From: Myxococcales bacterium
GTDB taxonomy: Bacteria; Myxococcota_A; Polyangia; Nannocystales; Nannocystaceae
Direction: 5' to 3'
DNA length: 64,000 bases
Assembly: GCA_014240065.1 (NCBI GenBank)
Contig: JAAZXR010000022.1
Span: 1-64,000, forward strand
The notes below the pieces were generated by a model. That model had not been told where the DNA came from and made no database searches. It saw only the letters and a program-made list of their open reading frames with translations. Of this stretch, positions 9,556 through 64,000 are shown in pieces. The first letter of the stretch is position 1, and the number at the start of each line of letters is the position of its first letter. Position numbers and translations under genes: made by a program.

Positions 9556-9680
9556 GGCGCCAAGGGTGCCACAGGCCGCCCCGAGAAGTGTAGGCGCCGC
9601 CCGCCGGTTCGCGCGCTGCGGAGCCACGACCCCTCGCGCTACGAGTGCGGCAGTCGCGCTGAGACGCCAACACTCGCCGC

Positions 9681-43597: not shown

Positions 43598-45121
<1,524 letters not shown>

Positions 45122-45139
45122 CCCCTCGTCGCGCCGCGG

Positions 45140-46162: not shown

Positions 46163-46292
46163 GAGCATTCTCGCGGTGGGAAGGTAACACACGCCGACGC
46201 GGGAGGACTCGATCAGCGTTCAACGGTCGTCTGACGGTTTTATTCGGTGAATTTCGAGGAGGCCACGCGAACGGCTCGCGGTCGCGTTCGGG

Positions 46293-46320
46293 CGCGCCGC
46301 TCGGGGAATCGAGCGGCGCG
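46293..46320. terminator. Strong hairpin between two minus-strand genes
   Basis: CGCGCCGCTC-N8-GAGCGGCGCG, ten perfect base pairs, 19 nt past the stop of the EVE-domain gene. No T-tract follows on either strand, so it may protect the 3' end or act as a factor-assisted terminator rather than a classical intrinsic one. Confidence 0.5.
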
Positions 46321-46338
46321 GGCCCGGTCCGCCGCGGC

Positions 46339-46866
46339 TCACACGGAGGCGCGCCGGCCGGCCTTCACCACGAGATCGTAGTGGCGAGGTTGCACGGGCT
46401 GGATCGACAGTCGCTGGCCCCGCTGCACCACCAACATCTCATGGAGCGTCGCTTGGGACTTCAGCCACTCGAGCGAAATCTCCGCCTTAAAACGCTCGAC
46501 GAACTCCACCTCCACCATGACCCACCGCGGGTCGTCCGGGTCCGATTTCGGATCGAAGTACTTGTTGTCTGGATCGAACTGCGTGTGATCGACGACGCCG
46601 AGCTTGGACACCCGGGCCAACCCCGCGACCCCCGGCGGCTTCGCGTTCGAGTGATAAAACAACACCTCGTCTCCCACGCGCATGTCGTCGCGCATGAAGT
46701 TACGGGCTTGGTAATTCCGGATGCCGTCCCACCCCGTGCGCCCCTCTCGCTCGAGCGTGTCGATGCCGTAGACATCGGGCTCGGACTTCATCAGCCAGCA
46801 CTGTCGCTTGCGCGAGGACGAGGGACTCTTGCGCGCCTTCGCGCGCGTTTTTTTCGACGTCGCCAT
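46339..46866 (-). CDS. EVE-domain protein
   Basis: 175 residues. A Lys/Arg/Ser-rich N-terminal tail (about 1-22) precedes a complete EVE domain: C-W-L-M-K-S-E-P-D-V-Y-G-I-D, W-D-G-I-R-N-Y-Q-A-R-N-F-M-R, G-D-E-V-L-F-Y-H-S-N and D-P-R-W-V-M-V-E-V. EVE domains are PUA-like modules that bind modified bases in DNA or RNA. The close match to the thymocyte nuclear protein 1 branch is evident from W-x-M-K-S-E-P. It lies 27 bp after mutS on the same strand. Confidence 0.93.
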   Translation of the reverse strand: MATSKKTRAKARKSPSSSRKRQCWLMKSEPDVYGIDTLEREGRTGWDGIRNYQARNFMRDDMRVGDEVLFYHSNAKPPGVAGLARVSKLGVVDHTQFDPDNKYFDPKSDPDDPRWVMVEVEFVERFKAEISLEWLKSQATLHEMLVVQRGQRLSIQPVQPRHYDLVVKAGRRASV

Positions 46867-46893
46867 GGGGAGAGCCTACCGGAGGCTGCCCGC

Positions 46894-49608
46894 CTAGTTC
46901 GAGCCTTCTTCGTCCCCACGCGCCGCCCGCCGATCCTCGGAGAGCAGCGCCACCAGGTCGCACAGGCGCGCGTGCGCTTGCCGCGGTGACAGCTCGTCGG
47001 GATCGAGCGCTCGGAGCAGCTCTGCGGCCTCGTCTGCGCGTTCTCGCGAGAGATCGTTCGGCGCTGGTGCCGCCTCCTCAAGGGGCGCTCCCGACGCGAA
47101 CAGATCCAGCTGCGGCGACAGCCCCACCCGCTCTTGCTGCTCAAGCCTCGCCAAGATCTTCGAGGCCCTCCGGAGCACTTGCCGCGGCAGCCCGGCCAGC
47201 TTGCCGACGTGGATGCCGTAGCTCCGCCCGGCGGCCCCCTCTTCGAGCCGGTGCAAGAACACCACCCTGCCCCGCTGTTCGTGGACCGTGACGTGGGCGT
47301 TCTTCACCCCGGCGAGCCTGGCGCTCAGCCCACAAAGCTCGTGGTAGTGCGTGGCGAACAGCGCGCGACATCCAATTTGATCGTGCAAGAACTCGGTGAT
47401 GGCCCACGCCAAGGACAGCCCGTCGTAGGTCGCCGTGCCCCGACCGATCTCGTCCAGCACAACCATGGAGCGCACCGTGGCCTGCGTCAGGATCTGCGCC
47501 GTCTCGCGCATCTCCACCATGAACGTGCTCTCTCCGCGGCCGAGGTCGTCGGCGGCCCCCACCCTGGTAAAAATTCGATCGACGAGACCTATCCGGGCGC
47601 GCTTCGCCGGCACAAACGACCCCGTGTGAGCGAGCAACACCATCAAGGCGGCCTGGCGCATCACCGTGCTCTTGCCCCCCATATTCGGGCCCGTCACCAG
47701 CAAGAGCCGCGGCTCCGCGCCGCTCCCTTGCGCCCGGAGCCGCAGGTCGTTGGGCACAAAGCGACCCGTGGGCAACATGCGCTCCACCACCGGGTGTCGG
47801 CTCTCCTCGATCTCCAACACGGGGGCGCCCACCACCTCCGGCCTCACGAAGTCGTTTTCTTGAGCCACCTGCGCCAACGAGCAGAGCGCGTCCACCGTCG
47901 CCACGCGCTCGGCCACGTCGAGCAGGCGGTGCGCCGCCTCGGAGATGATGTCGCGCAGCTCTTGGAACAGCTCAAGCTCGCGAGCGAGGGCCGCCCCTTG
48001 GGCCGCCAAGATCTTCTCTTCGAGGCCCGCGAGCTCCGGGGTCACGTAGCGCTCGGCGTTCGCGAGGGTCTGCTTACGAACGTAGTCGCTGGGCACGCGC
48101 GACAGGTGCGCCTTCGAGACCTCGATGTAGTACCCAAAGACGCGGTTGTGCTGGATCTTGAGCGTCGGAATCTCGGTGGCTGCGCGCTCGCGGGCCTCGA
48201 TCTCGGCGAGCACAGCGCGCGCGCCGGCGGCGAGGCTGCGCTGCTCGTCCAAGAACGTATCGGCCCCGTCCGCGATCACGCCGCCCTCGCGCGCGACGGA
48301 GGGGGGATCCGCGATGAGCCGATGGGTGAGCGTCTCCCACAGGTCCCGCAGCAGGTCCTCCCCGAGATCCAAGAGCTGCGGTCGGGCGACGGTGGCGGGG
48401 GACTCGTCGAGGCTCGCGAGGCACGCCGCCACCCTCGGGAGCGCGCCGAGCGAGGCCCGCAGCGCCCCCATCTCCCTCGGGTTGATCACGTTCAGCCGGG
48501 CGCGGGAGGCGATTCGCGCCATGTCACGGATATCCTTGAGACAAGACTGGGCCTGCTCGCGGGTCGCGGCGCGCTCCACGAGCGCCTCGACGCCGTCTTG
48601 GCGCGCGCCGATGATCTCCAGCGTCCGGACGGGAGCGCCGATCCAGCCCCGCAACATCCGGGCGCCCATCGCCGTCGCGGTCTCGTCCATCGCCCAGATC
48701 AACGTGCCCTTGCGCCGGCCCTCCCGCATCGTGGCGAAGATCTCGAGATTTCGCAGCGAGGCCTCGTCGAGCAGCACGTGGGCCCCCAAGTCGTGTCGCC
48801 GCATGCGATGAATCAGCAGGGTCTGGCCGGGCTGCGTCGACTCGGCGTATTCCAACGCCATGGCGGCCGCGTCCCTCCCGGCGGGGTCGAGCGCGCCGAG
48901 CCCGCCGCTCTCTTCGTCGAGCGCGGCCACCCGTTGGCTCGACGCGTCGCGAGCGCCACGCTCGGCGACCTCAAGCCGGGGGCAGTCTTGGCCGAGCGCC
49001 GCCACCAGCCACTCGTGGTCCCGCTCCTGCGCCACGATCTCGCGGGGGGCGATGCGCGCGAGCTCCGCCCGGAGCGCGTGCACATCCCCGGGGATGGCGG
49101 TGAAGAAATCTCCCGAGGAGATGTCGAGCCCGGAGAGCCCGAGGCTCCCCTCCCCTGGCCCGCGCACCACCGCCACGAGGTAGTTGGGCTCCCCGCGCAC
49201 CAGGTGCTCCTCGTCGAGCAACGCGCCCGGTGTCACGACCCGCACCACCTCTCGCCGCACAATCTTTGGCCCCTTCCTGCGCTTGGCTTGCTCCGGGGTC
49301 TCCATCTGCTCGCAGATGGCGACCTTGAACCCTTGCTGCACCAACGTCCGCAGATACCCCCCGATGGCGTGATAGGGCACGCCCGCCATGGGCACCGGCT
49401 GCTCGGCGTTGCGGTCGCGGCTCGTCACCGCGATGTCGAGCACGGGCCCCACAGTGACCGCGTCCTCAAAGAACATCTCGTAAAAGTCCCCCATTCGAAA
49501 CATCAAGACGGCGTCGTCATATCTCGACTTGATCTCGAGATATTGGCGCATCACCGGCGAATCGGCTGAGTTGTGGGGGGCGCCCAAGGTCGGATGGTTG
49601 TAACCCAT
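46894..49608 (-). CDS. mutS: DNA mismatch repair protein MutS
   Basis: 904 residues, full length. The mismatch-wedge motif is M-G-D-F-Y-E-M-F near residue 42. The connector, lever and clamp domains follow. Walker A is G-P-N-M-G-G-K-S-T, with downstream T-R-V-G-A-A-D-D-L-G-R-G-E-S-T-F, V-L-D-E-I-G-R-G-T-A-T-Y-D-G and A-T-H-Y-H-E-L. It binds mismatches and recruits MutL. The first 19 residues are not conserved, so translation could also begin at M20. Confidence 0.97.
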   Translation of the reverse strand: MGYNHPTLGAPHNSADSPVMRQYLEIKSRYDDAVLMFRMGDFYEMFFEDAVTVGPVLDIAVTSRDRNAEQPVPMAGVPYHAIGGYLRTLVQQGFKVAICEQMETPEQAKRRKGPKIVRREVVRVVTPGALLDEEHLVRGEPNYLVAVVRGPGEGSLGLSGLDISSGDFFTAIPGDVHALRAELARIAPREIVAQERDHEWLVAALGQDCPRLEVAERGARDASSQRVAALDEESGGLGALDPAGRDAAAMALEYAESTQPGQTLLIHRMRRHDLGAHVLLDEASLRNLEIFATMREGRRKGTLIWAMDETATAMGARMLRGWIGAPVRTLEIIGARQDGVEALVERAATREQAQSCLKDIRDMARIASRARLNVINPREMGALRASLGALPRVAACLASLDESPATVARPQLLDLGEDLLRDLWETLTHRLIADPPSVAREGGVIADGADTFLDEQRSLAAGARAVLAEIEARERAATEIPTLKIQHNRVFGYYIEVSKAHLSRVPSDYVRKQTLANAERYVTPELAGLEEKILAAQGAALARELELFQELRDIISEAAHRLLDVAERVATVDALCSLAQVAQENDFVRPEVVGAPVLEIEESRHPVVERMLPTGRFVPNDLRLRAQGSGAEPRLLLVTGPNMGGKSTVMRQAALMVLLAHTGSFVPAKRARIGLVDRIFTRVGAADDLGRGESTFMVEMRETAQILTQATVRSMVVLDEIGRGTATYDGLSLAWAITEFLHDQIGCRALFATHYHELCGLSARLAGVKNAHVTVHEQRGRVVFLHRLEEGAAGRSYGIHVGKLAGLPRQVLRRASKILARLEQQERVGLSPQLDLFASGAPLEEAAPAPNDLSRERADEAAELLRALDPDELSPRQAHARLCDLVALLSEDRRAARGDEEGSN

Positions 49609-49639
49609 TCACCCCAAATTGACGACCGAGCCCCCACGC

Positions 49640-49670
49640 AAAAGGGGCGCTCGGTTCCCCGAAGCGCCCC
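49640..49670 (-). terminator. Terminator after the SPOR-domain gene
   Basis: Minus strand: GGGGCGCT-N11-AGCGCCCC followed by TTTT. The 5' arm of a second possible hairpin on the plus strand (CCGAGC/GCTCGG, 49626-49654) overlaps it, so the two are mutually exclusive. It separates the SPOR gene (stop at 49692) from mutS. Confidence 0.6.
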
Positions 49671-49691
49671 CGATCTCGCCGCCCGCAGGCG

Positions 49692-50426
49692 CTACATCGC
49701 CATGACGTAGGCGATGACGTGCTCTTTTTTCTCAAACGCCGACTTGGCGTCCACGGCCTCGCTCCAGGTGGCGTAGGTCCCAAGGCGCACGCGGTGCCAC
49801 GTGCGACCCTTCACCTCCGCGCTGTCCACCCGCATCGAGTGTCCGTTCGACCGCATCTGCCCCGCGAGTTTCTCCGCGTCTTCCGCCCTCGAGAACGCCT
49901 TCAGCTGCAGCGTAAACTGGCGCGCCGCCCTGCGCTCTCCCGCGGTTTTTCCGGGTTTCTTCTTCGCGGCCTTCACGACCTCCCGGGCCGGCGGATCCAT
50001 TGGGATCGCGGCCGCCTGTGGCGTGGGTTCTTCCGCGGCGTTCGCGAGCTGCGTGTCGTCGCTCTCGAGGACGATCTCATCCTCCTCGAGCGCCGCGAGC
50101 TTCGCCGCCGCCTCGATCTCTTCCGTCGTTCGCGGGGGCTCCGAAGGATCCCGCGTGGGCGGGATCGCCTCGAGCTCCGACGCCGCGAGCCCCTCGCGGA
50201 ATTCGAAGCCGTCGTCGACGAGCTCATCCTCGAGCATGTCGAGCGAATCTGCGGTCGCCAAGCTGGCGACCCGGCCATCAGGCTCCCAAGCGACGCGCTT
50301 GCCCGCCATCACCCCGAGGACGAAGACAAAGCATCCGAGGACAGAGAGTCCAAAGAACAGGAAGAAGATTTGTCGGTTGTCGAGGGAGAACTCAACTTTG
50401 TCTTTCCATTTGTGCATCTCTCGCAT
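49692..50426 (-). CDS. SPOR-domain inner-membrane protein
   Basis: 244 residues from ATG 50426. Cytoplasmic N-terminus, one membrane helix (about 20-42, F-F-L-F-F-G-L-S-V-L-G), an acidic linker with Ala/Glu repeats (55-150), and a C-terminal SPOR domain (about 165-244). The SPOR domain reads F-T-L-Q-L-K-A-F-S-R-A-E-D-A-E-K-L-A and ends V-R-L-G-T-Y-A-T-W-S-E-A. SPOR domains bind peptidoglycan lacking stem peptides and localise proteins to division septa. The longer open frame upstream is not used because it lacks coding character. Confidence 0.87.
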   Translation of the reverse strand: MREMHKWKDKVEFSLDNRQIFFLFFGLSVLGCFVFVLGVMAGKRVAWEPDGRVASLATADSLDMLEDELVDDGFEFREGLAASELEAIPPTRDPSEPPRTTEEIEAAAKLAALEEDEIVLESDDTQLANAAEEPTPQAAAIPMDPPAREVVKAAKKKPGKTAGERRAARQFTLQLKAFSRAEDAEKLAGQMRSNGHSMRVDSAEVKGRTWHRVRLGTYATWSEAVDAKSAFEKKEHVIAYVMAM

Positions 50427-50692
50427 GGCGTGCTCGCTTTCGATCCCGCCGGACGCTCGGGGGATGTCTTGGTGATACAGGCATCTGAGAGAGCGCCCAA
50501 AACTCCCGCAATTTTTGAAGAGCGGGCGTCGGAGCTCCTTCGCGCGGTCCCACGCTGATTCTTCGCGCCGTGCGACGCCGCCGCGACCCATGAGCAGCCC
50601 CACGGGCCCCGACGATCCCTACGATCTCCCCGCGACGGCTCGGTGAACGCCCTTGGAACGGAGCGCTCACCTTGTGATGGCGAACCACACTC

Positions 50693-50744
50693 TGCCCGCC
50701 TGCCCGCCTGCCCGTCTGCCCGCCTCCCCGCCTCCCTGCCTGCC
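50693..50744. repeat. Degenerate TGCCCGCC octamer tandem repeat
   Basis: Six and a half head-to-tail copies of an 8-bp unit: four TGCCCG(C/T)C copies, then TCCCCGCC and TCCCTGCC, then TGCC. Not a multiple of three and outside any firm gene; a slippage-prone C-rich strand. Confidence 0.85.
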
Positions 50745-50995
50745 TCAAGGTGCTGGCCTCGCTGCACCTCGCGACACCGGCGAGTGGAGCGTGTGGGCCG
50801 GCGGCGCGGATGCCCTCCGAACCTGTGCATCCGCGCAGGATGTTGCGTGGCGGCATCCTCGAGTCAGCTCCGCGATGCGTCCTCCGCGCACGATCGCAAA
50901 TAAAATTAAAGAGAACAAAAAGGTCGGACGATGCCGTTCGATGCAGGGATCCGGCCGTCGACTTCGTCGATGTGTCGGTCAAGAGGCATGAGGAG

Positions 50996-51208
50996 ATGCG
51001 AATAACACCACTACAACCGGCGTTGGATTCGGAGACTGTCCGTGCGCGACAGAATATGGATCCAACCGTCGAAGGCGAGATTCTCCGCGCCCTTCGCCAG
51101 GACAACACCATCGAAGGTCCCGCCGCCGTGGAGCTCATTGCAGCGACGGCACGGACCCAATCGTATGGCGCATCCAGTGAAGGACAACTCGTAGACGTCT
51201 ACGCCTAA
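50996..51208 (+). CDS. Weak small ORF, possibly real
   Basis: 70 residues from ATG 50996 with AAGAGG 9 nt upstream. Composition is balanced (E-G-E-I-L-R-A-L-R-Q-D-N-T-I-E-G) and unlike the Arg/Pro/Ala-rich shadows elsewhere. Third-position GC is low for this genome. No family recognised. It might be a small helical protein, a decayed gene or chance. Confidence 0.25.
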   Translation: MRITPLQPALDSETVRARQNMDPTVEGEILRALRQDNTIEGPAAVELIAATARTQSYGASSEGQLVDVYA

Positions 51209-51334
51209 AAGGCCATAACTCACCCGATCAGGGGCATCGCTCGGTGTCCCTGCGCAGCTATTGGTTCGCTCGGAGCCTGCATCAACGGCCGCCCGCCGAC
51301 GTCAGACGCCGCTGCGAGAGGACCAGCGCCGGCG

Positions 51335-52819
51335 TCACTGCACGATTTCAAAGGAGGCGCGTGGATTTCGCAGCTGGACGCTGGCCCGCGCCTTTGGCAC
51401 CTCGGCCTCGGCGCCGCCGGTGCCGACCTTTACGATCTCGCGGGTGGCCGGATAATCGAGGCGCCACGACTCCGCGGGTCCGACCTCCACCCCCCGCACC
51501 ACGCGTTTCCGGGTCCGGGTGACCGTGAAGCCGCGCATCCCTCGCTGCACCACCTTGTGGTGCCCCGCTTGGATCGACGGTTCTTCGCGCTCCACGGTCG
51601 AAAAGGGCACGACAGCGTCCACTTCCCGGCCAAATACGATCCTAAAATCACGGTTTGGACCGAGGACCTCAGCCTCCACCATCCCGCGGTTCGCGGTGAC
51701 GTGAAACACCACGGGGAAGTCATAGGGGTTCTTCAGCTTCAAATCGATGGTCGGGTAGACCACGGTGGCGTCGAGTCCCATATCGACGTAGGAGCTTGGG
51801 CGGCTGTGCGGACGCGCGCGCACCACCTCGAGCCCCGCAAAAAATCCCGCCGCGAACAGGGAGGAGGCGACCTGGCAGATCCCGCCGCCAACCACGTCCA
51901 CGATCTCCCCGGAGTTGATCCCAGGCGCGAAGCGATACCCCGCCTCTACGCTGCGATCTCCGACCACTTCGTTGAACGAGAACGTCTCCCCCGGATCCAA
52001 CACAAAGCCGTCGAGCGCCGCCGAGCCGATCTTGAGGTTGTGCCCGCGATCCCGCTGCGCGGAGCCTGTGCGATAGCTCGTGGCGAACCGCCCGAGCACC
52101 GCCCCAAACGACAGGCCCGCGCGCGACGAGAGCGGATCCTCGTCGACCGCGGGCTTGGAGCGAACCACCAGATCGACCTCGGACGCGCCGGACGCCAGCG
52201 CCACAGCCACCCGCGACAGCGAATCGTGCGGCATCATCGCCGTACCGCTCATCGCGGGTACCACCGCCCTCGCCTCGAGATCGAGCCGCGTGGGGAGCGA
52301 GGGGGTGTCAAACTTTGGCGACAGCGCCGCGAGGACTTCGAGCGCCCTCGCCTCGTCAAACGCCAGCGGCACCGCGAGCGTGACGGCGCCACTGCGCGCG
52401 GCCGCGCGGGTCATCAGGTCTTCGACCCACGCGCCTGTGCGCCCCACGCGGAGCGCCCGCGTGGCGGCCCCTTCGATCTTCGCGTGGGCGCCGAGCTGCC
52501 GCGGCGACGACTCAATCCGCTCGGTGCCCGTGGTGAGGTGCAGCGGCGCGTCGAGCAGCTGCGCCGACAAGCCGCCGGCCCCCGCGTGCAGGCGGGCGCG
52601 GTCCCAGCCGCCGATGTCCAAGCCCGCCACGCGCACCCCCGGAACCACCGCCTCCGCATGGAGGCTGTCCGCATACTCTTCCGCGAGCCACCCACAAAGG
52701 CCGACGAACGCCGCCCCGATGAGCGCCCCCTCGCCCCATGCGAAGAACGCGCGCCAGCGGGACCATCTCCGCGCGGGCGCGGGCGCGTGAGAGTTTGAGG
52801 CGTGCTCTTGAGGCGACAC
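51335..52819 (-). CDS. VanW-family envelope protein
   Basis: 494 residues. Arg/Trp-rich cytoplasmic N-terminus, one membrane helix (about 30-46), then two peptidoglycan-binding-like domains (about 55-280, YoaR type). The C-terminal VanW domain has F-S-F-N-E-V-V-G-D-R, G-G-G-I-C-Q-V-A-S-S-L-F and a terminal domain with R-G-M-R-G-F-T-V-T-R. VanW proteins occur next to vancomycin-resistance genes but are also widespread as cell-wall-associated proteins of unknown activity; no resistance genes are nearby. It is divergent from the HEAT membrane protein gene. Confidence 0.88.
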   Translation of the reverse strand: MSPQEHASNSHAPAPARRWSRWRAFFAWGEGALIGAAFVGLCGWLAEEYADSLHAEAVVPGVRVAGLDIGGWDRARLHAGAGGLSAQLLDAPLHLTTGTERIESSPRQLGAHAKIEGAATRALRVGRTGAWVEDLMTRAAARSGAVTLAVPLAFDEARALEVLAALSPKFDTPSLPTRLDLEARAVVPAMSGTAMMPHDSLSRVAVALASGASEVDLVVRSKPAVDEDPLSSRAGLSFGAVLGRFATSYRTGSAQRDRGHNLKIGSAALDGFVLDPGETFSFNEVVGDRSVEAGYRFAPGINSGEIVDVVGGGICQVASSLFAAGFFAGLEVVRARPHSRPSSYVDMGLDATVVYPTIDLKLKNPYDFPVVFHVTANRGMVEAEVLGPNRDFRIVFGREVDAVVPFSTVEREEPSIQAGHHKVVQRGMRGFTVTRTRKRVVRGVEVGPAESWRLDYPATREIVKVGTGGAEAEVPKARASVQLRNPRASFEIVQ

Positions 52820-52896
52820 CGCATCACGCTAGGAGTTCCGCGCCGATCGGTCCAGAAACTGGGGAACTTAGCGCCGCGCTCGCCGTTGGTCGCGGT

Positions 52897-54267
52897 ATGT
52901 ATCGCTCGATGTCGCCCTACGATCCGAGGCCGTCGCGCGGGTATTCGCTGCGCCAAAAGTTCGCGCTCGCCGCGTTGATGACCCACGTTATGGCGCTCGT
53001 GATCGGGTACGCGATCTCGATGTGGGTGCGGGCAGATCGGGTCGCGCCTGAGGTGGAGCCCTTACTTCTCGCGGGGTTTTACCTGCTCTTGGCCCTGTGC
53101 GCCGTGCTCGACGCGATGTGGGCGGATGAGGTCATCTTTGACGGGAGCTTCCGGATCACCGCGCTCCAAGGCAAGAGCGTCGAGGCGCTCAACGCGAACG
53201 CCAGCCTCGACGACATGATCGCGACCACCCGGCGTCCCAGCGTCACCTTCCCGCTCTCCTTGGTCGTCGCGGGCTTGTTCAACTACGGCTTTTTAAACTT
53301 CGCCACGCGCGATTTTTTGGGATTTTACGACAGCACGGGTCAACACGTCAGGACGCTGAAGGGCGCCGACCCCAGCGACACTGCCCTGCGCCTCGGCGCC
53401 GTGCGAGCCCTGGCCCTCAACACCCGCCCGGCCTCCGTGCGGGCGCTGGTCCGCGCCACGGAGCACGAAGACGCCGACACCGCGGCCTGGGCGGCCTGGG
53501 CCCTCGGCCGCCACGCGTCGACGCCGTACGCGGGGAAGCTCGTGGAACCACTCGCGCGCGCCCTCGACAGGGACGAGCCGAGCGTACGCCGAGAAGCCGT
53601 CCTCTCCCTCGCGCGCGTCCAGCATCGGCCCATTCGGGCCCGCCTGATTCAGCTGTTGTCCGACGATCTTGAGGGGTCGACCCCCGCCGACCTACGGCTC
53701 GTGTGGGGCCTCGGCTACCTCCAACACCTCGACGGCCTGGAGGTCCTCACCCAGTCCCTCGACAGGGGCGATGAGGGGGGCGTCGGCCCGATGGCGGCGT
53801 GGGCGATCGCGCAGCTGCGGGACCAGCGAGATGGACGCAGCGCGGTGCCCGTCCTTGAGCGGCGGCTGCTCGCCGCGCCATTCGAGACCGCCTGCGCCAT
53901 CCTCCACGCCCTCTCGGTGCTCGGTGACGAGCGCTCCAATATGGTCTTGATGCGGGGCTTCGACGCCCTCCCACCGATGATCCGCGCCCAAACCTGCCCC
54001 GCGATCCGCATCTTCACGAGCCCCGATCTGCGCGGAGATGAGCGCATTTTGGTGCGCCCAGAGACCTTCGCCATGAAGACGCTGCAGGCCCTAGGGAAGG
54101 TGCGAGCGACCTCCCCCGAGATGCGCGCGTTGGTCGAGCCGTGGCTCGAAACCGTGGTCAATGACGTCCCTGACAACTCCCTCGCGACGCGCCAGGCCGC
54201 CGCGAACTTACTAGAGGGAATTCGAACGACGCGAGATGACCGCGACGCCGCAGACCCATCTGGTTGA
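52897..54267 (+). CDS. Membrane protein with HEAT-like repeats
   Basis: 456 residues from ATG 52897. Three membrane helices (about 23-44, 53-75, 118-137) after an Arg-rich N-terminus, so the C-terminal part is predicted to be outside the cytoplasm. Residues about 150-440 are HEAT/armadillo-like helix pairs (L-R-L-G-A-V-R-A-L-A-L, A-D-T-A-A-W-A-A-W-A-L-G-R-H, P-S-V-R-R-E-A-V-L-S-L-A-R). Such solenoids bind other proteins. It opens a plus-strand cluster with the pseudokinase 75 nt downstream. Function unknown. Confidence 0.8.
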   Translation: MYRSMSPYDPRPSRGYSLRQKFALAALMTHVMALVIGYAISMWVRADRVAPEVEPLLLAGFYLLLALCAVLDAMWADEVIFDGSFRITALQGKSVEALNANASLDDMIATTRRPSVTFPLSLVVAGLFNYGFLNFATRDFLGFYDSTGQHVRTLKGADPSDTALRLGAVRALALNTRPASVRALVRATEHEDADTAAWAAWALGRHASTPYAGKLVEPLARALDRDEPSVRREAVLSLARVQHRPIRARLIQLLSDDLEGSTPADLRLVWGLGYLQHLDGLEVLTQSLDRGDEGGVGPMAAWAIAQLRDQRDGRSAVPVLERRLLAAPFETACAILHALSVLGDERSNMVLMRGFDALPPMIRAQTCPAIRIFTSPDLRGDERILVRPETFAMKTLQALGKVRATSPEMRALVEPWLETVVNDVPDNSLATRQAAANLLEGIRTTRDDRDAADPSG

Positions 54268-54342
54268 TCCCGTCACAAGATATTGTCTCGGCGAAGGCAG
54301 GGCAGGTATGCTCCCGACACTCGCCAGGTCCCTCTCGCGCCC

Positions 54343-56127
54343 ATGCTCAACAAAGGAACAAAACTCGATCCACGGAACCTGACCGCGGCAGAGATCGCCC
54401 CCACGGCCTCCATCGAGGTGGTGAAGCGACTTCGTTCGACCCCCTTCGGTGAGAATTACCTCGGCTCCCAAGGGAACACGAAGCTGCTGCTGACCTCCTT
54501 CGAGCCTGACTTCGTCACCGAACGGGAGACGCGCGATCGTCTGATGCAATCGCTCGCGACGGCGGGCGCGTCGCGGCATGACAGCCTGCTCACCACCTTC
54601 GGCAGCATCGAGGTGAGCGGCACGCTGATCGCCGTGCGCGCGTACCCAGGCTGCCCGAGCCTGAAGAACTTCATCGACCGCAGAAAATCCCGTGGCAAGG
54701 AAATCTCCCCCGAGACCGCCATCGGGATCATCATCGAGGTCGCGCACGCTCTGTGCGCCCTCCACCCCACGAGCCTCCACGGATTCGTCAACAGTGAGAC
54801 CGTGTTCTTGTCGAAGACCGGCAAGGTCTTGCTCGGAGGCTTGGGCGAGATGCCCCTGCTTCGCTCGGGCTCGATCCTCCGCGAGGCCTACGCCTCCGGC
54901 GTCCTGCCCATGCCCCCTCCAGAGCTCCGCGGGAACTCGCCGAAGCCAACCCAAGCGTCCGACATCTTCTTCCTCGGCTCGCTCTTTGTCGAGCTCATCA
55001 CCGGGAAGTGTGTGACCGCCGCCGGTGACGACATGGCGACACTTCGCACGCGGGTCGCACCGGCGCTCCGAGACATCTTCGTGGCTTGCTGCGCGGCGCA
55101 GGCCTCCTCGCGCCCGGCCGATGCGTTCGAGTTCCTCGATATGCTCGCGAAATATCAGGTGGGCTCGGCCGCCGACGTCGCGGAGCCTGCAGCGGCCGGC
55201 GCCTCCGCCGGTGCGCCCGCCGCCGGGATCCAAGATCCACCCTCGGCGGACGCCTTCACGAACCTCGGCGCGCTGGCGCCTCTGGATGACGGCGCCGACC
55301 GCGTGGGCGCTTCCACCCCGACCGTTGCGGGGCCGGCGACGCTCGACATGTTGGATGCGGGCGCCAGCATTGGGCTCGGCGTCCCCACCCTCGACTCCCC
55401 GGTCGACGATGGCGGCGCTCCGGGCCTCAGCTCGATCGGGATCGACGAGCCCCGAGAGGCGATCTCGTTGTCCAACATGGACTCGAGCCCAAACATCCCG
55501 AGCGCCGCCGCGAGCGGCCTCTCGTCCATGGGGATCTCGTTGGACATGGTCGACGCCGATGTTCGCTTGGTCGTCGTGGTCGCTGGAATCGACGAAGGCC
55601 CCTACGACCTCGATACGATTCGCTCGAGGATTCGCGACGGAAGCGTGACGCCCGCGAGCCTCGTGGGAGAATTGGGCCACCCCACGCAGCGAGCTTCCGA
55701 CCATCCTGCGACCCGCAATATGTTCTCCACAGATGCGGATGGCGCCGTGGCGCTCGTCTCCATGGATGCGAGCGGCCCGGAGAGCTCGGGGCCATCCATC
55801 GTCCCCGAGAGCGCGCCCACGCTGGGGCTCAATCCAGACAGCATCGGCCTCGACTTCTCCGGATCGCCCGCGAGCCCACGCCCCCCCTCGGGGCCCTCGA
55901 TCGCGGCGACCGGCGACGGAGCGCCCCCTCGCCTGGCGGCGGCAGGACCCGCGGCGGCGGAGGACGTCGCCTCCCCTGGTTTCACACCGGAGCCCGCGCC
56001 CACGAACCGCGCCCGAAAGAGCCGCGGTACCAGCGCCGCTGGCACGTTCGGGTGGCTGTTCCTCACCCTGATACTGTTTGCGGTCACCGCGTGGGTGATG
56101 TGGCAACGACAAGGCAGCGGAGGATGA
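54343..56127 (+). CDS. Pseudokinase with GYF_2-like segment and C-terminal membrane anchor
   Basis: 594 residues from ATG 54343; the frame opens 60 nt earlier. Residues about 25-270 keep the protein-kinase scaffold: A-S-D-I-F-F-L-G-S-L-F-V-E-L-I-T-G of helix F, and P-P-P-E-L for APE. The active site is gone: the HRD loop reads H146-G-F-V-N-S-E-T-V, DFG reads G-G-L (165-167), and the VAIK lysine is absent (L-L-L-T-S-F). A Pro/Ala/Ser-rich linker follows. A segment near 430-490 (D-E-G-P-Y-D-L-D-T-I-R-S-R-I-R-D-G) resembles GYF_2 domains. A single helix near the C-terminus leaves a short tail (W-Q-R-Q-G-S-G-G). It is a tail-anchored scaffold or allosteric regulator, by inference. Confidence 0.8.
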   Translation: MLNKGTKLDPRNLTAAEIAPTASIEVVKRLRSTPFGENYLGSQGNTKLLLTSFEPDFVTERETRDRLMQSLATAGASRHDSLLTTFGSIEVSGTLIAVRAYPGCPSLKNFIDRRKSRGKEISPETAIGIIIEVAHALCALHPTSLHGFVNSETVFLSKTGKVLLGGLGEMPLLRSGSILREAYASGVLPMPPPELRGNSPKPTQASDIFFLGSLFVELITGKCVTAAGDDMATLRTRVAPALRDIFVACCAAQASSRPADAFEFLDMLAKYQVGSAADVAEPAAAGASAGAPAAGIQDPPSADAFTNLGALAPLDDGADRVGASTPTVAGPATLDMLDAGASIGLGVPTLDSPVDDGGAPGLSSIGIDEPREAISLSNMDSSPNIPSAAASGLSSMGISLDMVDADVRLVVVVAGIDEGPYDLDTIRSRIRDGSVTPASLVGELGHPTQRASDHPATRNMFSTDADGAVALVSMDASGPESSGPSIVPESAPTLGLNPDSIGLDFSGSPASPRPPSGPSIAATGDGAPPRLAAAGPAAAEDVASPGFTPEPAPTNRARKSRGTSAAGTFGWLFLTLILFAVTAWVMWQRQGSGG

Positions 56128-57005
56128 GCCCGGGCGCGTCGCGCGTCACTCGGAGGACGCCGTGGGCTGCGGGGCTCATCGTGACGTGCGCGCTCGCTGG
56201 ATGTGCGACGAACACGGGGTCCTCCGTGCTCCCCGGCGATGACGCGCCCGCCTGCGACGACCGCTGCGTCCAAGGCCTGCTCCGAACGGTGCTCGCGAGC
56301 CTGGAGCACGGGCGGGTTCAAGAGGCCCGCGACCGCCTCGAAGATATTCGTCCGCGCCCTCCGATGACCGACCCCACGCTCCGCATGGTCCTCGCGCTCC
56401 TCGCCCTTGAGGGGGGAGACCGGGCGCAGGCGATACGCCACGCGAACTGGCTCGCTGATCATGCCCGCAGCGCCGCGCTCGCTGCGAAGACCTGCCGAGT
56501 CCTCGTTCGACTCGGCGAGGCCCGACGGGCGGCGACCTTCGCGCAGCAGCGCATCAACGCGGGGATCGCAGGGCCAGCGCTACACCTCGAGTTGGCGCTC
56601 GCTTGGGAGGCGCTGGGCCAGGAGGCTGCGGTGCTCCGCGCGCTCAACGAGGGTCTGGTCGCCTTCCCTGACGACCCCACGCTCCTCGAGACCGCCGCCG
56701 CTCGAGCTGACGCCGCCGGTGATCACGCCGCCGCGCTCGACCTCTACACGCGCGCCATCCCTCACCACGCCTCCCCCGAGCTCGTGCACGAGGCCGTCGC
56801 GCGGGTCGCTACCCAAGCGGGCCAATATGACGTCGCCGTCCGCCACGCCCGCCTCGCTGTCGAGATGGCGGGGGACCGAGACCCCAAGCTGTACCGAGTG
56901 CTCCACGACGCGCTCCTCGCCAGCGGTGACGCCGACGCGGCCCGAGGCGCCCTTGAACGCGGGCGGCGTCGATTCCCCCAGGCGACGATCCTCGGGGAGC
57001 CGTGA
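56124..57005 (+). CDS. TPR-repeat lipoprotein
   Basis: 293 residues from ATG 56124, overlapping the pseudokinase stop by 4 nt (ATGA). Lipobox A-L-A-G-C (Cys27). The body is a run of TPR-like helix pairs (L-R-M-V-L-A-L-L-A-L-E-G-G-D-R-A-Q-A-I-R-H, H-L-E-L-A-L-A-W-E-A-L-G-Q-E-A-A-V, A-A-L-D-L-Y-T-R-A-I). It is probably an envelope scaffold protein working with the pseudokinase and HEAT proteins. A longer frame start inside the pseudokinase gene is rejected because the lipobox fixes the N-terminus. Confidence 0.82.
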   Translation: MSPGASRVTRRTPWAAGLIVTCALAGCATNTGSSVLPGDDAPACDDRCVQGLLRTVLASLEHGRVQEARDRLEDIRPRPPMTDPTLRMVLALLALEGGDRAQAIRHANWLADHARSAALAAKTCRVLVRLGEARRAATFAQQRINAGIAGPALHLELALAWEALGQEAAVLRALNEGLVAFPDDPTLLETAAARADAAGDHAAALDLYTRAIPHHASPELVHEAVARVATQAGQYDVAVRHARLAVEMAGDRDPKLYRVLHDALLASGDADAARGALERGRRRFPQATILGEP

Positions 57006-59002
57006 GCGCGTCGAGTGAGGATCGGCGCCAACGCGCTGGCCTCGTCCGCCGTTGGGCGTGGGCGTGGGCGCTGGGGGCCTCGCTGTGCACGCTCACCACC
57101 CGCGGCGCGGCGTCGGCCCCGCTGTGGCCGAGCGCGGGCGACGCCGCGCGTCGGACCTTAGACGATCCAGCCTCACCACCCGAGGTGGGCGTCTCCATCG
57201 TCGAAGCCTCCGACGCGCTGCACCCCGCGGCCGCGAGCGCCCTGCTCGCCTCCGCAGCCATGAATCCCTCGCGAGCGGTGCGCCGCGCGGCGGTCCTCCG
57301 ATGCGCGCAGCGACGGCTGATCGCGTGCCTGCCCGCAGCGATCACGCAGTGGCGCCGCGGCCTCGATCCCGATCCCGAGAGTCGCGCCGCCTACCTCGCC
57401 TTGCTGCGGCTGTTCATCGATGAGCGAGTCGCCGCGATCCTCGTGGACGCGCTCCACGCTCCAGACCCGGACCTCCGCGCCGCCGTCGCCTCAAGCCTGC
57501 TCGACGCGCCGCTCTCGGACGCCGTCCGTCCCGCGATCCTCGAAGCCCTGACCTCCCGCGCCGCGGACAAAATCCCGACGGTGCGCGCGGCGGTCTTGCC
57601 GACGCTGTCTGCCCTCGACCCCACCGGGCGGCCCGCCGCGCTGTTGCAAGGTCTCGACGATCCCGAGCCGCTGGTGAGGGCGAGCGCCGCGACCGCCGTC
57701 GGGCGACTCGCGGATCGCAGGTTCGCACCGCGACTCCTCGCCATGCTCGAGGCTCCATCCACGCCCGACATCGCGGCCGCCGTGCTCACCGCCCTCGCCG
57801 GAACGCCAGGCCCGGAGGTCGACGCCGCGCTGCTGCGGTTCCTCGAGACGCCACCAACCCACCTGTCGCAAAGCTCCGTCGCCTGGGCCATCGCCCGCCG
57901 CGGGCCCTTCTCTCGCACTACCCTTGAGGCGCTGCTCTCACTGCTCGACGACCCGACCCTCACCGACACAGTCTCTCGAACGCTCGCGGGGAACCTCTCC
58001 CCCGACGATCTCACGGAGATCCGCGCCCGCCTGCGCACGCGCGCCCGCGTGCGCCCGTCGTCGCGGACCGCGCTGCGAGCCCTGCTCGACGCCAGCGGAC
58101 CCTGGACCGATGCGCCCTCCGAACCGAGCGCGCCGTCCGCCACCGCCGGCGCGGGCTTCTTGGAGATCCAACGGACGCGCGCGCTCCGGGTCGCGCACGC
58201 CTTCGAACATCCGCCCACCTCCGACATGCGAGCCGGCCTGCGCCTGTTTCGAGCCCTGGCTTCCGCGCCCGAGCTGCCCACCACCGAGGCGCTATTGTGG
58301 CGCTTCGTCGCGAGCCCCCGCTCGCCGTCCACCGCGCCGCCGCCGGTCCACTCCGGTGATCGCCGCCTCGGCCGCGCGGAGCTCGAGCGCTGGACGCTCG
58401 ACCCCGCGCGCGCGCCCTCGACCCGCTGCGCTGCGCTGTGGGCCACGCTCCGCTCCGCAGAGGACCGACGAGAGCGTCGCGCCGCCTGGGCGCTGGCGTC
58501 GCGGCATCTGGCGAGCGGCGCCGAAATGCGTCATTGCGCCGCGCTCGCGCTCGCCATGACCGACGCACCGCTCAACCGCCAAGGAGAGCCCCGCGACCGC
58601 GGCTCCATCGCGCGAGCGAGGCGCCATATCTTCACCCGCTCCTTGCTCGACCGCGATCCTCGGGTGCGCGCCGCGGCGCTGGTCTCGGGATGGCTCCACG
58701 GCGCCCCCGACATGGCCGTGGTGCTCCGCCGCGCTCGGCGAGACTCCCACCCTCGCGTCCGCCAGCTGGCGAGCACCCTGACCGTGTCTGCGCCCCCGCG
58801 CCCGCGCCGCTCGAGAGCGCTGTTCGTCGTGCGCCCCTCGACGGCCGCCCAGCACCCGACCCACGGGTGGCTGTGGGCGCGCCTTGAAAATACTGACGCC
58901 GACGGCTCCGCGATCCCCGTGCCCACGCTCCCGTACTTGCCGCTCGCGATCTTGCCGAACCCCGCACGGACCGACGTCCCTCCCCTCGAAAGAATCCAAT
59001 GA
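57002..59002 (+). CDS. Exported HEAT-repeat protein
   Basis: 666 residues from GTG 57002, whose bases overlap the TGA of the TPR lipoprotein gene (GTGA). Basic N-terminus and hydrophobic stretch (about 16-38, with A-S-A at the end) suggest a signal peptide. Residues about 60-340 are HEAT/PBS-lyase-type repeats (A-V-R-R-A-A-V-L-R-C, P-D-L-R-A-A-V-A-S-S-L-L, P-L-V-R-A-S-A-A-T-A-V-G-R-L-A). More helical repeats follow to about 600. No enzymatic motif. It completes a translationally coupled trio with the pseudokinase and TPR lipoprotein. Confidence 0.8.
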   Translation: MSASSEDRRQRAGLVRRWAWAWALGASLCTLTTRGAASAPLWPSAGDAARRTLDDPASPPEVGVSIVEASDALHPAAASALLASAAMNPSRAVRRAAVLRCAQRRLIACLPAAITQWRRGLDPDPESRAAYLALLRLFIDERVAAILVDALHAPDPDLRAAVASSLLDAPLSDAVRPAILEALTSRAADKIPTVRAAVLPTLSALDPTGRPAALLQGLDDPEPLVRASAATAVGRLADRRFAPRLLAMLEAPSTPDIAAAVLTALAGTPGPEVDAALLRFLETPPTHLSQSSVAWAIARRGPFSRTTLEALLSLLDDPTLTDTVSRTLAGNLSPDDLTEIRARLRTRARVRPSSRTALRALLDASGPWTDAPSEPSAPSATAGAGFLEIQRTRALRVAHAFEHPPTSDMRAGLRLFRALASAPELPTTEALLWRFVASPRSPSTAPPPVHSGDRRLGRAELERWTLDPARAPSTRCAALWATLRSAEDRRERRAAWALASRHLASGAEMRHCAALALAMTDAPLNRQGEPRDRGSIARARRHIFTRSLLDRDPRVRAAALVSGWLHGAPDMAVVLRRARRDSHPRVRQLASTLTVSAPPRPRRSRALFVVRPSTAAQHPTHGWLWARLENTDADGSAIPVPTLPYLPLAILPNPARTDVPPLERIQ

Positions 59003-59050
59003 TACTAATTGCATCGATAACGATGTGTATTGTTGCGTAATAGTTCATTC

Positions 59051-59093
59051 TGACAGCCGGATCCTGTCAAATGCTGGATATTATACATATAAA
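59051..59093 (+). promoter_or_regulatory. Promoter with overlapping inverted repeat, upstream of the second ECF sigma gene
   Basis: TGTCAA (59065-59070), 17-bp spacer, TATAAA (59088-59093), about 33 bp before the ECF sigma ATG. The perfect inverted repeat TGACAG-N7-CTGTCA (59051-59069) overlaps the -35 element. The whole intergenic region 59003-59126 is strikingly AT-rich for this genome. Confidence 0.5.
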
Positions 59094-59126
59094 TAAGTTG
59101 GGCCGTAGCGTGCATTGTAATCATGC

Positions 59127-59681
59127 ATGTCGTCTTCCACAGGAACCTTCGAATCAAGCGTCGCCCCCCATCTGAACACCCTGCGCGCCCTGGCATGGAG
59201 GCTGACCAAGGCGGACGACCGCGCCGACGACCTCATGCAAGAAACCTTGATCCGGGCATGGGACCACTGGGAGCGCCTCCAAGCCTCCGACGCCAACGTC
59301 CGCGCGTGGCTCCGCCGCGTGATGGTCAACAAATTTATCTCCCAGCAGCGACATCGCAAGGTCGTCAACCGAACGGCGGCCCGCCCCGACCTCGTGGAGC
59401 ACCTCGTGTCCGCAGACCGCCGGAGGACCGCTCAGCACCCGGAGACGATCTTCATGCAACAGCACAAACGGCGCGAGGTCGCCTCCGCGCTCGACTCCCT
59501 CGACGAGCCCTTCCGCACCGTCATCACCATGGTCGACGTCCGCGGCTGGTCGTACAAAGAGGCGGCCGCCGCTCTCGAGTGTCCGCTCGGGACGGTGATG
59601 AGCCGCCTCCACCGCGGCCGCGCCCGCATGCGCGCGCAGCTGAGTTCGAGCCAGATCCCGATCTCCGAGCTGCTCTGCTAA
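59127..59681 (+). CDS. ECF-type RNA polymerase sigma factor
   Basis: 184 residues. Region 2: L-A-W-R-L-T-K-A-D-D-R-A-D-D-L-M-Q-E-T-L-I-R-A-W and W-L-R-R-V-M-V-N. Region 4: S-A-L-D-S-L-D-E-P-F-R-T-V-I-T-M-V-D-V-R-G-W-S-Y-K-E-A-A, helix-turn-helix ending L-G-T-V-M-S-R-L-H-R-G-R. A canonical small ECF sigma factor. No obvious anti-sigma gene with membrane helices and a zinc motif follows; the next gene, 10 nt downstream, encodes a lipoprotein. Confidence 0.95.
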   Translation: MSSSTGTFESSVAPHLNTLRALAWRLTKADDRADDLMQETLIRAWDHWERLQASDANVRAWLRRVMVNKFISQQRHRKVVNRTAARPDLVEHLVSADRRRTAQHPETIFMQQHKRREVASALDSLDEPFRTVITMVDVRGWSYKEAAAALECPLGTVMSRLHRGRARMRAQLSSSQIPISELLC

Positions 59682-59691
59682 CCTCCTCCCT

Positions 59692-60987
59692 GTGGTGAGA
59701 ACGCGCGGGAGACGACGAGGGGTCCGCGTCGCGGTGACGGTGGCGTCGGCGTCGGCCCTCTTCCACCTCCCAGCCTGCGAGGCGCCCTCGACCTCCGACG
59801 CCTCCACTTCCCAGCGAGCATCCGCGCCGCGTCCGGCGATCGCAGCGCCCGCCCTCGCTCCCCTCCCGCCGCCCGTCCGCGAATCCGTGAGCCGGCCGCG
59901 GCTCGCGAGCGGCCGAGGTTGGCTCCACCTCGCGTGGACCCAGCCCGGGCTGGACGGACGCGGGGACGCCCTGTTCTTTTCGGCCCGCGCCCACGAGGAC
60001 GGACGCTGGAGAGACCTCAGCCCCCTGTCTCGGCACGTCGCCCCTGACGCGCCCGTTCAGCTGGTGAGCGCGCCGGCACGCGAGGTCGCGATCACATGGT
60101 CGGCCCCCATCGGCGACGGCCAAATCCGACCGTGGATCGCGATCTCCCACGACGCAGGCAGACGCTTCGCCGCCCCTGAAATCCTCGATCTTCCCGCCGG
60201 CGTCGCGCGCACCGCGTCCGCGCTGATCGCCCCACCGACACGAGCCGATGCGCCGTGGACCACGGCGATCCCTCGCGCCGCCGTGGTCCTCCCGGGCCCC
60301 GCCTCCCCGACGGCGCCCTCCTCACCACCCTCCTACGCGTGGACGTCCCTGGCTGCGCCGCCGACCGCGGAGGACGCCTCGCGCCTCGAGGCCTTGACGG
60401 TGTGTTCCGGCGGTGGCGCGCTCGGGCTGTGGTGCAGCCCCGGCGGCGAACCCTGGCTCGCCACGCTGGCCGAGGCCCATCTCCTCCACGACGACGCTCG
60501 CTGCCTCGCAGGTCAGCGACCGCTCTCCTGCCGCGGCAACCTCATCGCGTTGGCGACCGAGTCGGCGCGGTCGGGGGAGACCTGGCTGTGGATCGGCCAG
60601 AGTCCCGCGGCGCTGCGCCGCCTGATCCGGCTGCCCGCTGCGGCCGCCACGGTGACGCAGGTGGAGTGGATCGACGACACCCACCTCCTCGCCGCGTGGA
60701 TCGACAGGCGGCGAACACTGCGAGCCTTGACCATCGACCTGAGCGGCGGTGGCACGAGGTCGCTGCGCCTCGCCGACGCGGTCCTTGAGGCGAGCGCGAC
60801 GCTCGACGCCGAGCGCTCCCACGCGTACTTCGCGTGGACCGCGGCGCCCGCGACTCCCACCGCGGGGGGCGCGGCCGTCGCCTCAGACCGCGGCACCCTC
60901 CATCTCGGGAGCGTCGCTTTGCGCGCGGGGATGCTCTCATCGGCCGCTCCCGAGCAGACCCTCGACCCCCGGGACTCGACGCGCTAG
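59692..60987 (+). CDS. Asp-box (sialidase-like propeller) lipoprotein, unknown function
   Basis: 431 residues from GTG 59692. Very basic N-terminus, hydrophobic stretch and a lipobox-like L-P-A-C (Cys29), then a Ser/Pro-rich linker. The body is beta-rich with a clear Asp-box S-H-D-A-G-R-R-F (152-159), the beta-hairpin motif of sialidase-like propellers. Strands such as W-L-H-L-A-W-T-Q and V-A-I-T-W-S-A-P alternate as in six-bladed propellers. Catalytic sialidase residues cannot be assigned, so a binding role is more likely. It lies in tandem with the ECF sigma gene. Confidence 0.75.
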   Translation: MVRTRGRRRGVRVAVTVASASALFHLPACEAPSTSDASTSQRASAPRPAIAAPALAPLPPPVRESVSRPRLASGRGWLHLAWTQPGLDGRGDALFFSARAHEDGRWRDLSPLSRHVAPDAPVQLVSAPAREVAITWSAPIGDGQIRPWIAISHDAGRRFAAPEILDLPAGVARTASALIAPPTRADAPWTTAIPRAAVVLPGPASPTAPSSPPSYAWTSLAAPPTAEDASRLEALTVCSGGGALGLWCSPGGEPWLATLAEAHLLHDDARCLAGQRPLSCRGNLIALATESARSGETWLWIGQSPAALRRLIRLPAAAATVTQVEWIDDTHLLAAWIDRRRTLRALTIDLSGGGTRSLRLADAVLEASATLDAERSHAYFAWTAAPATPTAGGAAVASDRGTLHLGSVALRAGMLSSAAPEQTLDPRDSTR

Positions 60988-60996
60988 TACACGCCC

Positions 60997-61566
60997 ATGC
61001 GGTCTGTTCACCCGCCACGGATCACGCCTCGAAGCAGCGACCTGGCAACACGCCTGCGGACGCTGCTCGCGGCCGCGCTCCTCACGGGCGCCCCTGGCTG
61101 CGGCAAAGCGACGGCGCCGGAGGCCGCGCCGGCCGAGCAGGTGCGAGTGCGCTACGAGGCGCAGACCCTCGACGGCGCGACCTTCTCGCTGGCCGCGCGG
61201 GACGGCGCCTTCACCTTGATCAACGTGTGGGCGACCTGGTGTGAGCCCTGTGTCGACGAGTTTCCGCTCCTCGCCGAGCTCCACCGTGAGCTGCACGGAC
61301 CTCCGTTTTCCGTGGTCGCCGTCTCGGTCGACAGCGCGCGAAACGGCGCCCGGGTCAAGGCCATGGTGCGCGACTGGGAGCTTCCGTTCCCCGTGGTGCA
61401 CGATCCCGACAACCGCATCGTGACGACCTTGAGAGTCTCCGGGTACCCGACCTCCGTGCTGATCGGTCCTCGCGGCGTCGAAGTCGCCCGTCGCGAAGGG
61501 GTGCTCCGAGGCGCGAGCGGACCGTTTTTGTCGCTGGTCCGCGGCGCGCTCGAAGACCACGAATGA
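60997..61566 (+). CDS. TlpA-like thioredoxin-fold lipoprotein
   Basis: 189 residues. Probable lipobox G-A-P-G-C (Cys35) after a hydrophobic segment. The thioredoxin fold carries the redox motif W-C-E-P-C (Cys82, Cys85) in the context L-I-N-V-W-A-T-W-C-E-P-C, and the cis-Pro in G-Y-P-T-S-V-L-I-G. Proteins of the TlpA/ResA group reduce disulfides outside the cytoplasm, for example in cytochrome maturation; the partner here is unknown. It lies 9 nt after the Asp-box lipoprotein gene and is convergent with ftsH. Confidence 0.92.
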   Translation: MRSVHPPRITPRSSDLATRLRTLLAAALLTGAPGCGKATAPEAAPAEQVRVRYEAQTLDGATFSLAARDGAFTLINVWATWCEPCVDEFPLLAELHRELHGPPFSVVAVSVDSARNGARVKAMVRDWELPFPVVHDPDNRIVTTLRVSGYPTSVLIGPRGVEVARREGVLRGASGPFLSLVRGALEDHE

Positions 61567-61587
61567 CCCGCCCATCGCGGGCCTCCC

Positions 61588-63528
<1,941 letters not shown>

Positions 63529-63576
63529 GACGTGGTCGAAATGGCGCCGGCGGGCGACGCGGGGAGAGAGAACGCC

Positions 63577-63604
63577 ATCCTAAGACTGAACGCCGTGGGC
63601 ACAA
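63577..63604 (-). promoter_or_regulatory. Possible ftsH promoter
   Basis: Minus strand: TTGTGC (63604-63599), 16-bp spacer, TAGGAT (63582-63577), about 50 nt before the ftsH start. Moderate match to sigma-70 consensus only. Confidence 0.35.
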
Positions 63605-63652
63605 GTTTCGATGTGCGCGTTTTGCGGGAATCGTACGAGGCGCTCACGGTCG

Positions 63653-64000
63653 TCACGGCGTCGCAGCGGCGCCCTCCCCGGTGGATTCCACCTGCAAGCC
63701 CCATCTATTCACACATAGCCGGCGTTGTGGGTGAACGCAAAACACCCTGGCACGAGCGCCGCCAGGCGTCGTTGCTGCGCCGCCAGGGTCGAGATGCGCA
63801 TCCCACTCGCAAAGCGCCGCGTCCGCGTCTTTGAGCGCGACTACCGCGAGTTCAGCACCGTCCACGCCTTCGGCGGTACAAAAGTCCCGCAGGGCCTGCA
63901 GTCGCACCACCGGAGGGATCGCCCCCCACCCCTCGGCCCGCAGCCGGCGGCCCGGCGGCATCTCACCGTGTGCCGGCCCCGCGGCGACGAGCTGAGCCTC
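63653..64000 (-). CDS. C-terminal part of a probable tRNA(Ile)-lysidine synthase (cut by window edge)
   Basis: The frame is open to the right edge (no stop up to 64000), giving about 115 C-terminal residues. The pattern A-I-P-P-V-V-R-L-Q-A-L-R-D-F-C-T-A-E-G resembles the helical substrate-binding region of TilS (usually x-L-P-P-x-x-R-x-x-x-L-R-x-W), and tilS directly precedes ftsH in many bacteria. The N-terminal S-G-G-x-D-S loop that would prove it is outside the window, so the identity is inferred. The gap to ftsH is 124 bp. Confidence 0.45.
   Translation of the reverse strand, partial: EAQLVAAGPAHGEMPPGRRLRAEGWGAIPPVVRLQALRDFCTAEGVDGAELAVVALKDADAALCEWDAHLDPGGAATTPGGARARVFCVHPQRRLCVNRWGLQVESTGEGAAATP

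Follow-up and report, generated by a model that had tools for sequence, protein, structure and literature searches.

Several described bacterial systems place a degenerate kinase, or an adaptor-bearing membrane protein, in the cell envelope. EssB/YukC of type VII secretion is a transmembrane pseudokinase in which a cytosolic degenerate kinase domain and a single transmembrane (TM) helix serve a scaffold role, the MviN pseudokinase (ActPs3) is an envelope-synthesis membrane protein that has lost all three catalytic motifs, and GLW pseudokinases carry a GLW motif in place of HRD (PMC12599244). EcpK, a BY pseudokinase of M. xanthus, is catalytically dead and acts as a scaffold in an envelope pathway (PMC12004946), and GltG joins a cytosolic FHA domain to a TM helix and a periplasmic domain (PMC3169522). 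Bacterial pseudokinases are little studied; a 2025 review covers seven families of them without naming a Myxococcota, GYF or AgmX family in its text. The protein considered here, the product of gene B of a Nannocystales myxobacterium, belongs to a family in which a dead kinase is combined with a GYF adaptor domain and a periplasmic domain of the gliding-machine type, and no description of a Myxococcota pseudokinase-GYF family was found in the open-access literature searched.

Positions are given in the window, the whole stretch of 64,000 nucleotides that was analyzed. ORF calling between 52897 and 59002 yielded four neighboring plus-strand genes, A to D (table). They are real genes, since other genomes hold their homologues in the same order. 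The first-pass annotation had described four plus-strand genes joined by ATGA and GTGA overlaps, and both the coordinates and the overlaps proved exact: B and C share ATGA at 56124-56127, C and D share GTGA at 57002-57005, and each overlap is preceded by a purine-rich ribosome-binding-like sequence. A 75-nt gap lies between genes A and B, and a TTG at 54283 is an alternative start for B. The earlier parts list stood as far as the four genes went; it left out the GYF domain of B and the conserved flanking genes, which are VanW, SPOR and MutS upstream and ECF sigma, TlpA and FtsH downstream. A scan for promoters returned a single weak match, on the opposite strand, and no non-coding RNA was found in positions 45000-64000. 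The gap between D and the ECF sigma gene (59003-59126) is AT-rich and contains a weak terminator-like hairpin at 59010-59027. Between the sigma and TlpA genes, 59692-60987 encodes a predicted lipoprotein of 431 aa with no family above cut-off and no match in the neighborhoods of relatives.

Features of the locus in window coordinates, with the evidence on which each assignment is based.
Feature	Position	Strand	Basis
Gene A: three N-terminal TM helices and HEAT solenoid, 456 aa	52897..54267	+	HEAT_2, AlphaFold
Gene B: pseudokinase-GYF-tail anchor, 594 aa	54343..56127	+	Pfam scan, model
B pseudokinase domain, residues 1-280	54343..55182	+	kinase fold, motif table
B GYF domain, residues 406-475, flanked by two disordered linkers	55558..55767	+	PF14237, model
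B C-terminal TM helix, residues 566-591	56038..56115	+	hydropathy, model
Gene C: TPR lipoprotein, 293 aa, accessory	56124..57005	+	TPR_14, lipobox
Gene D: exported HEAT protein, Sec-type signal peptide, 666 aa	57002..59002	+	HEAT_2
ECF sigma factor linked to D	59127..59681	+	Sigma70_r2/r4
TlpA-like thioredoxin protein, conserved sigma-gene neighbor	60997..61566	+	AhpC-TSA E 6e-17
VanW/PG_binding_4/G5 protein, divergent from A	51335..52819	-	VanW E 1e-41

The N-terminal domain of B was modeled as a kinase fold at pLDDT ~94, and its closest structure was PknI of M. tuberculosis (Z 26.6, rmsd 2.1 Å over 241 residues). Profile alignment to Aurora A and the motif table placed none of the catalytic residues: the beta3 Lys, HRD Asp, catalytic-loop Asn and DFG Asp are all missing, with HGF in place of HRD (F at the Asp position, in the sequence LHGFVNSE) and GLG in place of DFG (G at the Asp position). 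B thus has the kept kinase fold of bacterial Ser/Thr pseudokinases and their loss of one or more of the beta3 Lys, HRD Asp and DFG Asp, in its case all three. In the Pfam scan, B had no matches up to E 1 other than to kinase and GYF_2 models. GYF_2 (PF14237) matched the GYF segment at E 2.4e-4 and the whole protein weakly, at E 0.0045; 18 of 20 B family members matched it as well, and the domain was modeled at pLDDT ~93. The solved AgmX domain 7z3c was among its PDB matches at a non-significant E of 1.3, and the GYF signature is lost in four relatives (G005, L082, L084 and RBC066). The second disordered linker leads into the TM helix, and the protein stops 3 residues after it. An AgmX/PglI periplasmic tail following the TM helix is absent from the B of the window, and complete Nannocystales members also stop at or near the helix. 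The tail was probably lost within the Nannocystales lineage, which would make the B of the window a derived relative and not a full family member.

GYF domains bind proline-rich PPG-type motifs. The B linkers of L014 and L076 contain 6 and 11 PPG-hydrophobic motifs, mostly PPPGY, where ~0.5 would be expected; PPPGY repeats were rejected as a general family trait, being confined to two linkers (G008 and L076). A GYF-ligand-like PPGY is conserved in the predicted cytosolic N-terminus of A in five loci (L015, L016, L057, L070 and L072). As a ligand of the GYF domain of B it is retained only as a lead, since it is absent from the A of the window and is found where B is missing.

Relatives of B were collected with a B profile at E <= 1e-25 from 263 good Myxococcota genomes, and 67 of these, about a quarter, carried one, usually in single copy and mostly of 600-700 aa. 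Their usual architecture is an HG-type pseudokinase, a GYF domain, a TM helix and an AgmX/PglI-like periplasmic tail. NF033768, the AgmX/PglI C-terminal family, was detected in nearly all relatives scanned from outside the order Nannocystales; scores exceeded the cut-off of 40 in L021 (41.6), L193 (42.0), L210 (51.8) and L216 (52.6), and fell below it in L189, L190, L191, L202, L215 and L020. HG replaces HR of HRD in 49/49 aligned family rows. In a tree, seven sampled HRD kinases, a small outgroup, were split from all 49 rows by a branch with support of 100/100, and the Nannocystales members formed one group (100/99). B belongs to an apparently unnamed family that is present in many Myxococcota, often beside an exported HEAT protein.

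That B still binds nucleotide or acts as a weak kinase is very unlikely. Individual motifs do survive in the family: some of the 49 relatives keep the beta3 Lys or the DFG Asp, the B of L190 has VAIK and DFG, f35 members keep VVVK, and L084, the one row in which the HRD Asp is present, has HGD and DPG. The B of the window lacks all three catalytic residues, and no relative (0/49) holds the Lys, HRD Asp and DFG Asp together. The alignment bore out the degeneracy of the pseudokinase, the 49 relatives showed that it persists across the family, and the TM prediction confirmed the terminal membrane helix. Recovery of catalytic residues in close relatives, which the first-pass annotation had named among the findings that would refute its reading of the cluster, was approached once, in L084, where the motifs are partly regained or retained and the beta3 Lys and catalytic-loop Asn are missing.

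The other three products are predicted to be membrane-inserted or exported. A matched HEAT_2 at E 9e-15, and its AlphaFold model (mean pLDDT 88) has TM helices at residues 18-45, 54-80 and 114-136 followed by HEAT repeats at 140-443; the model resembles alphaRep/ARM solenoids in Foldseek. Its N-terminus is predicted to be cytosolic and its HEAT domain periplasmic, which the charge pattern mostly fits: the short TM1-TM2 loop is poorer in charged residues than the stretches before TM1 and between TM2 and TM3, but a charged stretch also follows TM3, which limits the fit. Named relatives of A come from Nannocystis, Enhygromyxa, Plesiocystis, Paraliomyxa and related MAGs. Distant full-length relatives (TM region and HEAT, 430-490 aa) occur in unrelated neighborhoods in other Myxococcota classes (L140 7953-9284; also L141, L142, L144, L145 and L147). 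D matched HEAT_2 at E 1e-14, and its signal peptide is seen in relatives also. C matched TPR_14 at E 9e-7 and has the lipobox LAGC with Cys27. It is limited to the window and one related group: the window, L018, L079, L082 and L084 are the only loci with C between B and D, always with a lipobox, and most relatives lack it.

Across 19 good Nannocystales genomes, A and D are each present in single copy in all 19, a few copies being split over fragments, and B is present in 12. The seven genomes that lack B keep A and D, and A and D must therefore function without B; in G003, G009 and G022, A is directly followed by D. A divergent VanW gene adjoins A nearly everywhere (not in G003), and D is inverted in Plesiocystis and one Enhygromyxa. 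In L057 (G002), the place of B between A and D is taken by a cysteine-rich repeat protein on the opposite strand (8457-10316). D adjoins the ECF sigma gene, away from A, in Nannocystis (L157-L159) and in genus g11 (G021, L164), and the pairing is kept in most other loci with enough flank. The linkage of D to the sigma gene is thus stronger than that of D to A, so the four genes are a frequent but modular neighborhood. Of the arrangement proposed by the first-pass annotation, a conserved neighborhood with HEAT envelope proteins survived; one fixed four-gene unit did not, with C mostly absent, B missing in 7/19 and D moved or inverted. Likewise, coupling could fix the product ratio of B, C and D in this lineage only, and not that of all four genes.

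The linkage to the sigma gene is one of the two strongest rivals to a shared platform, the other being that independent modules merely neighbor one another. In the first of these, the cluster would serve the ECF sigma factor at 59127 as its sensing arm in the periplasm: D, together with A or B, would report on the state of the envelope and control sigma, replacing a classical anti-sigma factor. D and sigma do stay together where A and B lie elsewhere, no separate anti-sigma gene was recognized beside the ECF sigma gene, and a TlpA-like protein follows sigma in many loci. We consider this unlikely: a secreted D cannot touch sigma, and many genomes with the sigma gene lack B, which is the sole candidate in the cytosol. 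In the window, moreover, ~120 nt of AT-rich sequence separate D from sigma, and in G002 (L057) no sigma gene lies beside D.

Outside the order Nannocystales, 12/31 loci, representing 8/17 GTDB families, have a HEAT protein gene no more than four genes from B; half of the families of the phylum that hold B have no HEAT gene nearby. These neighbors were counted as HEAT proteins, not as established D orthologues. Inspection by eye found a Sec-like signal or lipobox in 11/12 of them, and the remaining one (L216) has an unclear start; in six Polyangia families the HEAT gene is downstream of B, as in the window. Against a chance rate of 3.6% per locus, assumed from 6-49 HEAT_2 matches per genome, the proximity has a binomial p of ~5e-8, a rough value given simple gene calling and non-random sampling. 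It bears on the reading in which order is conserved without shared function, A-VanW and D-sigma being separate modules and B an independent passenger. The modules do lie apart in Nannocystis and g11, and A and D are kept where B was lost or gained; the recurrence of a HEAT neighbor in eight families outside Nannocystales, together with the B-C-D overlaps in the window, makes this reading rather unlikely.

Further genes were observed at some of these loci. In three, a 7TM-7TMR_HD/HDIG phosphohydrolase-like protein lies between B and the exported HEAT gene (L190 3194-5020, L191 9879-11552 and L193 5019-6842), hinting at a nucleotide second-messenger link. In L210, a DUF4388 protein (9822-11783) lies between a HEAT lipoprotein and the pseudokinase, and similar-sized genes occupy that position in L208, L209, L211 and L219.

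From the domain make-up, lost catalytic residues, family spread and recurring exported HEAT neighbor established by computation, we put at about even (roughly 0.5) the probability that genes A to D encode a non-catalytic, envelope-spanning binding platform. Binding is the simplest role because the phylum has kept a kinase fold that lacks catalytic residues and is attached to both an adaptor domain and a membrane anchor. Coupling across the inner membrane is suggested by the exported HEAT protein that recurs near B and by the AgmX/PglI-like arm seen in relatives. B would form the cytoplasmic side, its kinase fold predicted to be unable to transfer phosphate, with the GYF domain following on a disordered tether and the last helix holding the protein at the inner membrane, and would recruit cytosolic partners by binding. 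The periplasmic side would consist of A, with its HEAT domain on a three-helix anchor, secreted D and, in some lineages, the TPR lipoprotein C. B would descend from the Myxococcota family with an AgmX/PglI-like periplasmic tail, a tail since gone in Nannocystales. We infer physical association of these proteins, a ligand for the GYF domain and a scaffold role; the process served may perhaps be peptidoglycan or surface assembly. A wider proposal, possible though doubtful, is that of a widespread undescribed Myxococcota envelope machine, in which a pseudokinase-GYF hub, an AgmX/PglI-type arm and an exported HEAT scaffold would couple the cytosol to the outer envelope independently of phosphorylation, membrane and secreted HEAT proteins replacing the lost covalent arm in Nannocystales. 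The locus offers genes with which trans-envelope coupling without phosphorylation can be tested, and the B family is present in cultured strains of Plesiocystis, Enhygromyxa and Paraliomyxa.

Comparison with known systems places B near, and apart from, several of them. A defense-system reading was discarded, as the PADLOC and MAD6 matches reflect generic kinase or HEAT similarity (B scored 38.2 bits against MAD6 NF047741, cut-off 460, and PD-T4-6 scores were <=32 bits). EcpK and B are both dead kinases of myxobacteria; EcpK has the unrelated bacterial tyrosine-kinase fold. Unlike GLW pseudokinases, B carries HG-x (HGF) and not GLW at the HRD site. MviN (ActPs3) resembles B in being a membrane protein with three catalytic motifs lost, although the motifs differ and the Pfam scan gave no MviN/MurJ domain match to B. 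EssB/YukC shares a cytosolic degenerate kinase domain and a single TM helix with B, but belongs to another phylum and has other partners, B has a GYF domain, and no YukC family match to B was found up to E 1. B relatives outside Nannocystales share a GYF domain, a single TM helix and a C-terminal domain of AgmX/PglI type with the gliding-machine proteins GltJ/AgmX and GltG/PglI of Myxococcus. The scores of these relatives fall well short of the equivalog cut-offs for GltJ and GltG (for GltJ NF033761, cut-off 450 bits, <=58 bits in relatives and no match for the B of the window), and no gliding motor genes were recognized adjacent to B. The B family is set apart from both gliding proteins by having a pseudokinase as its cytosolic module and, in Nannocystales, by ending without the periplasmic tail.
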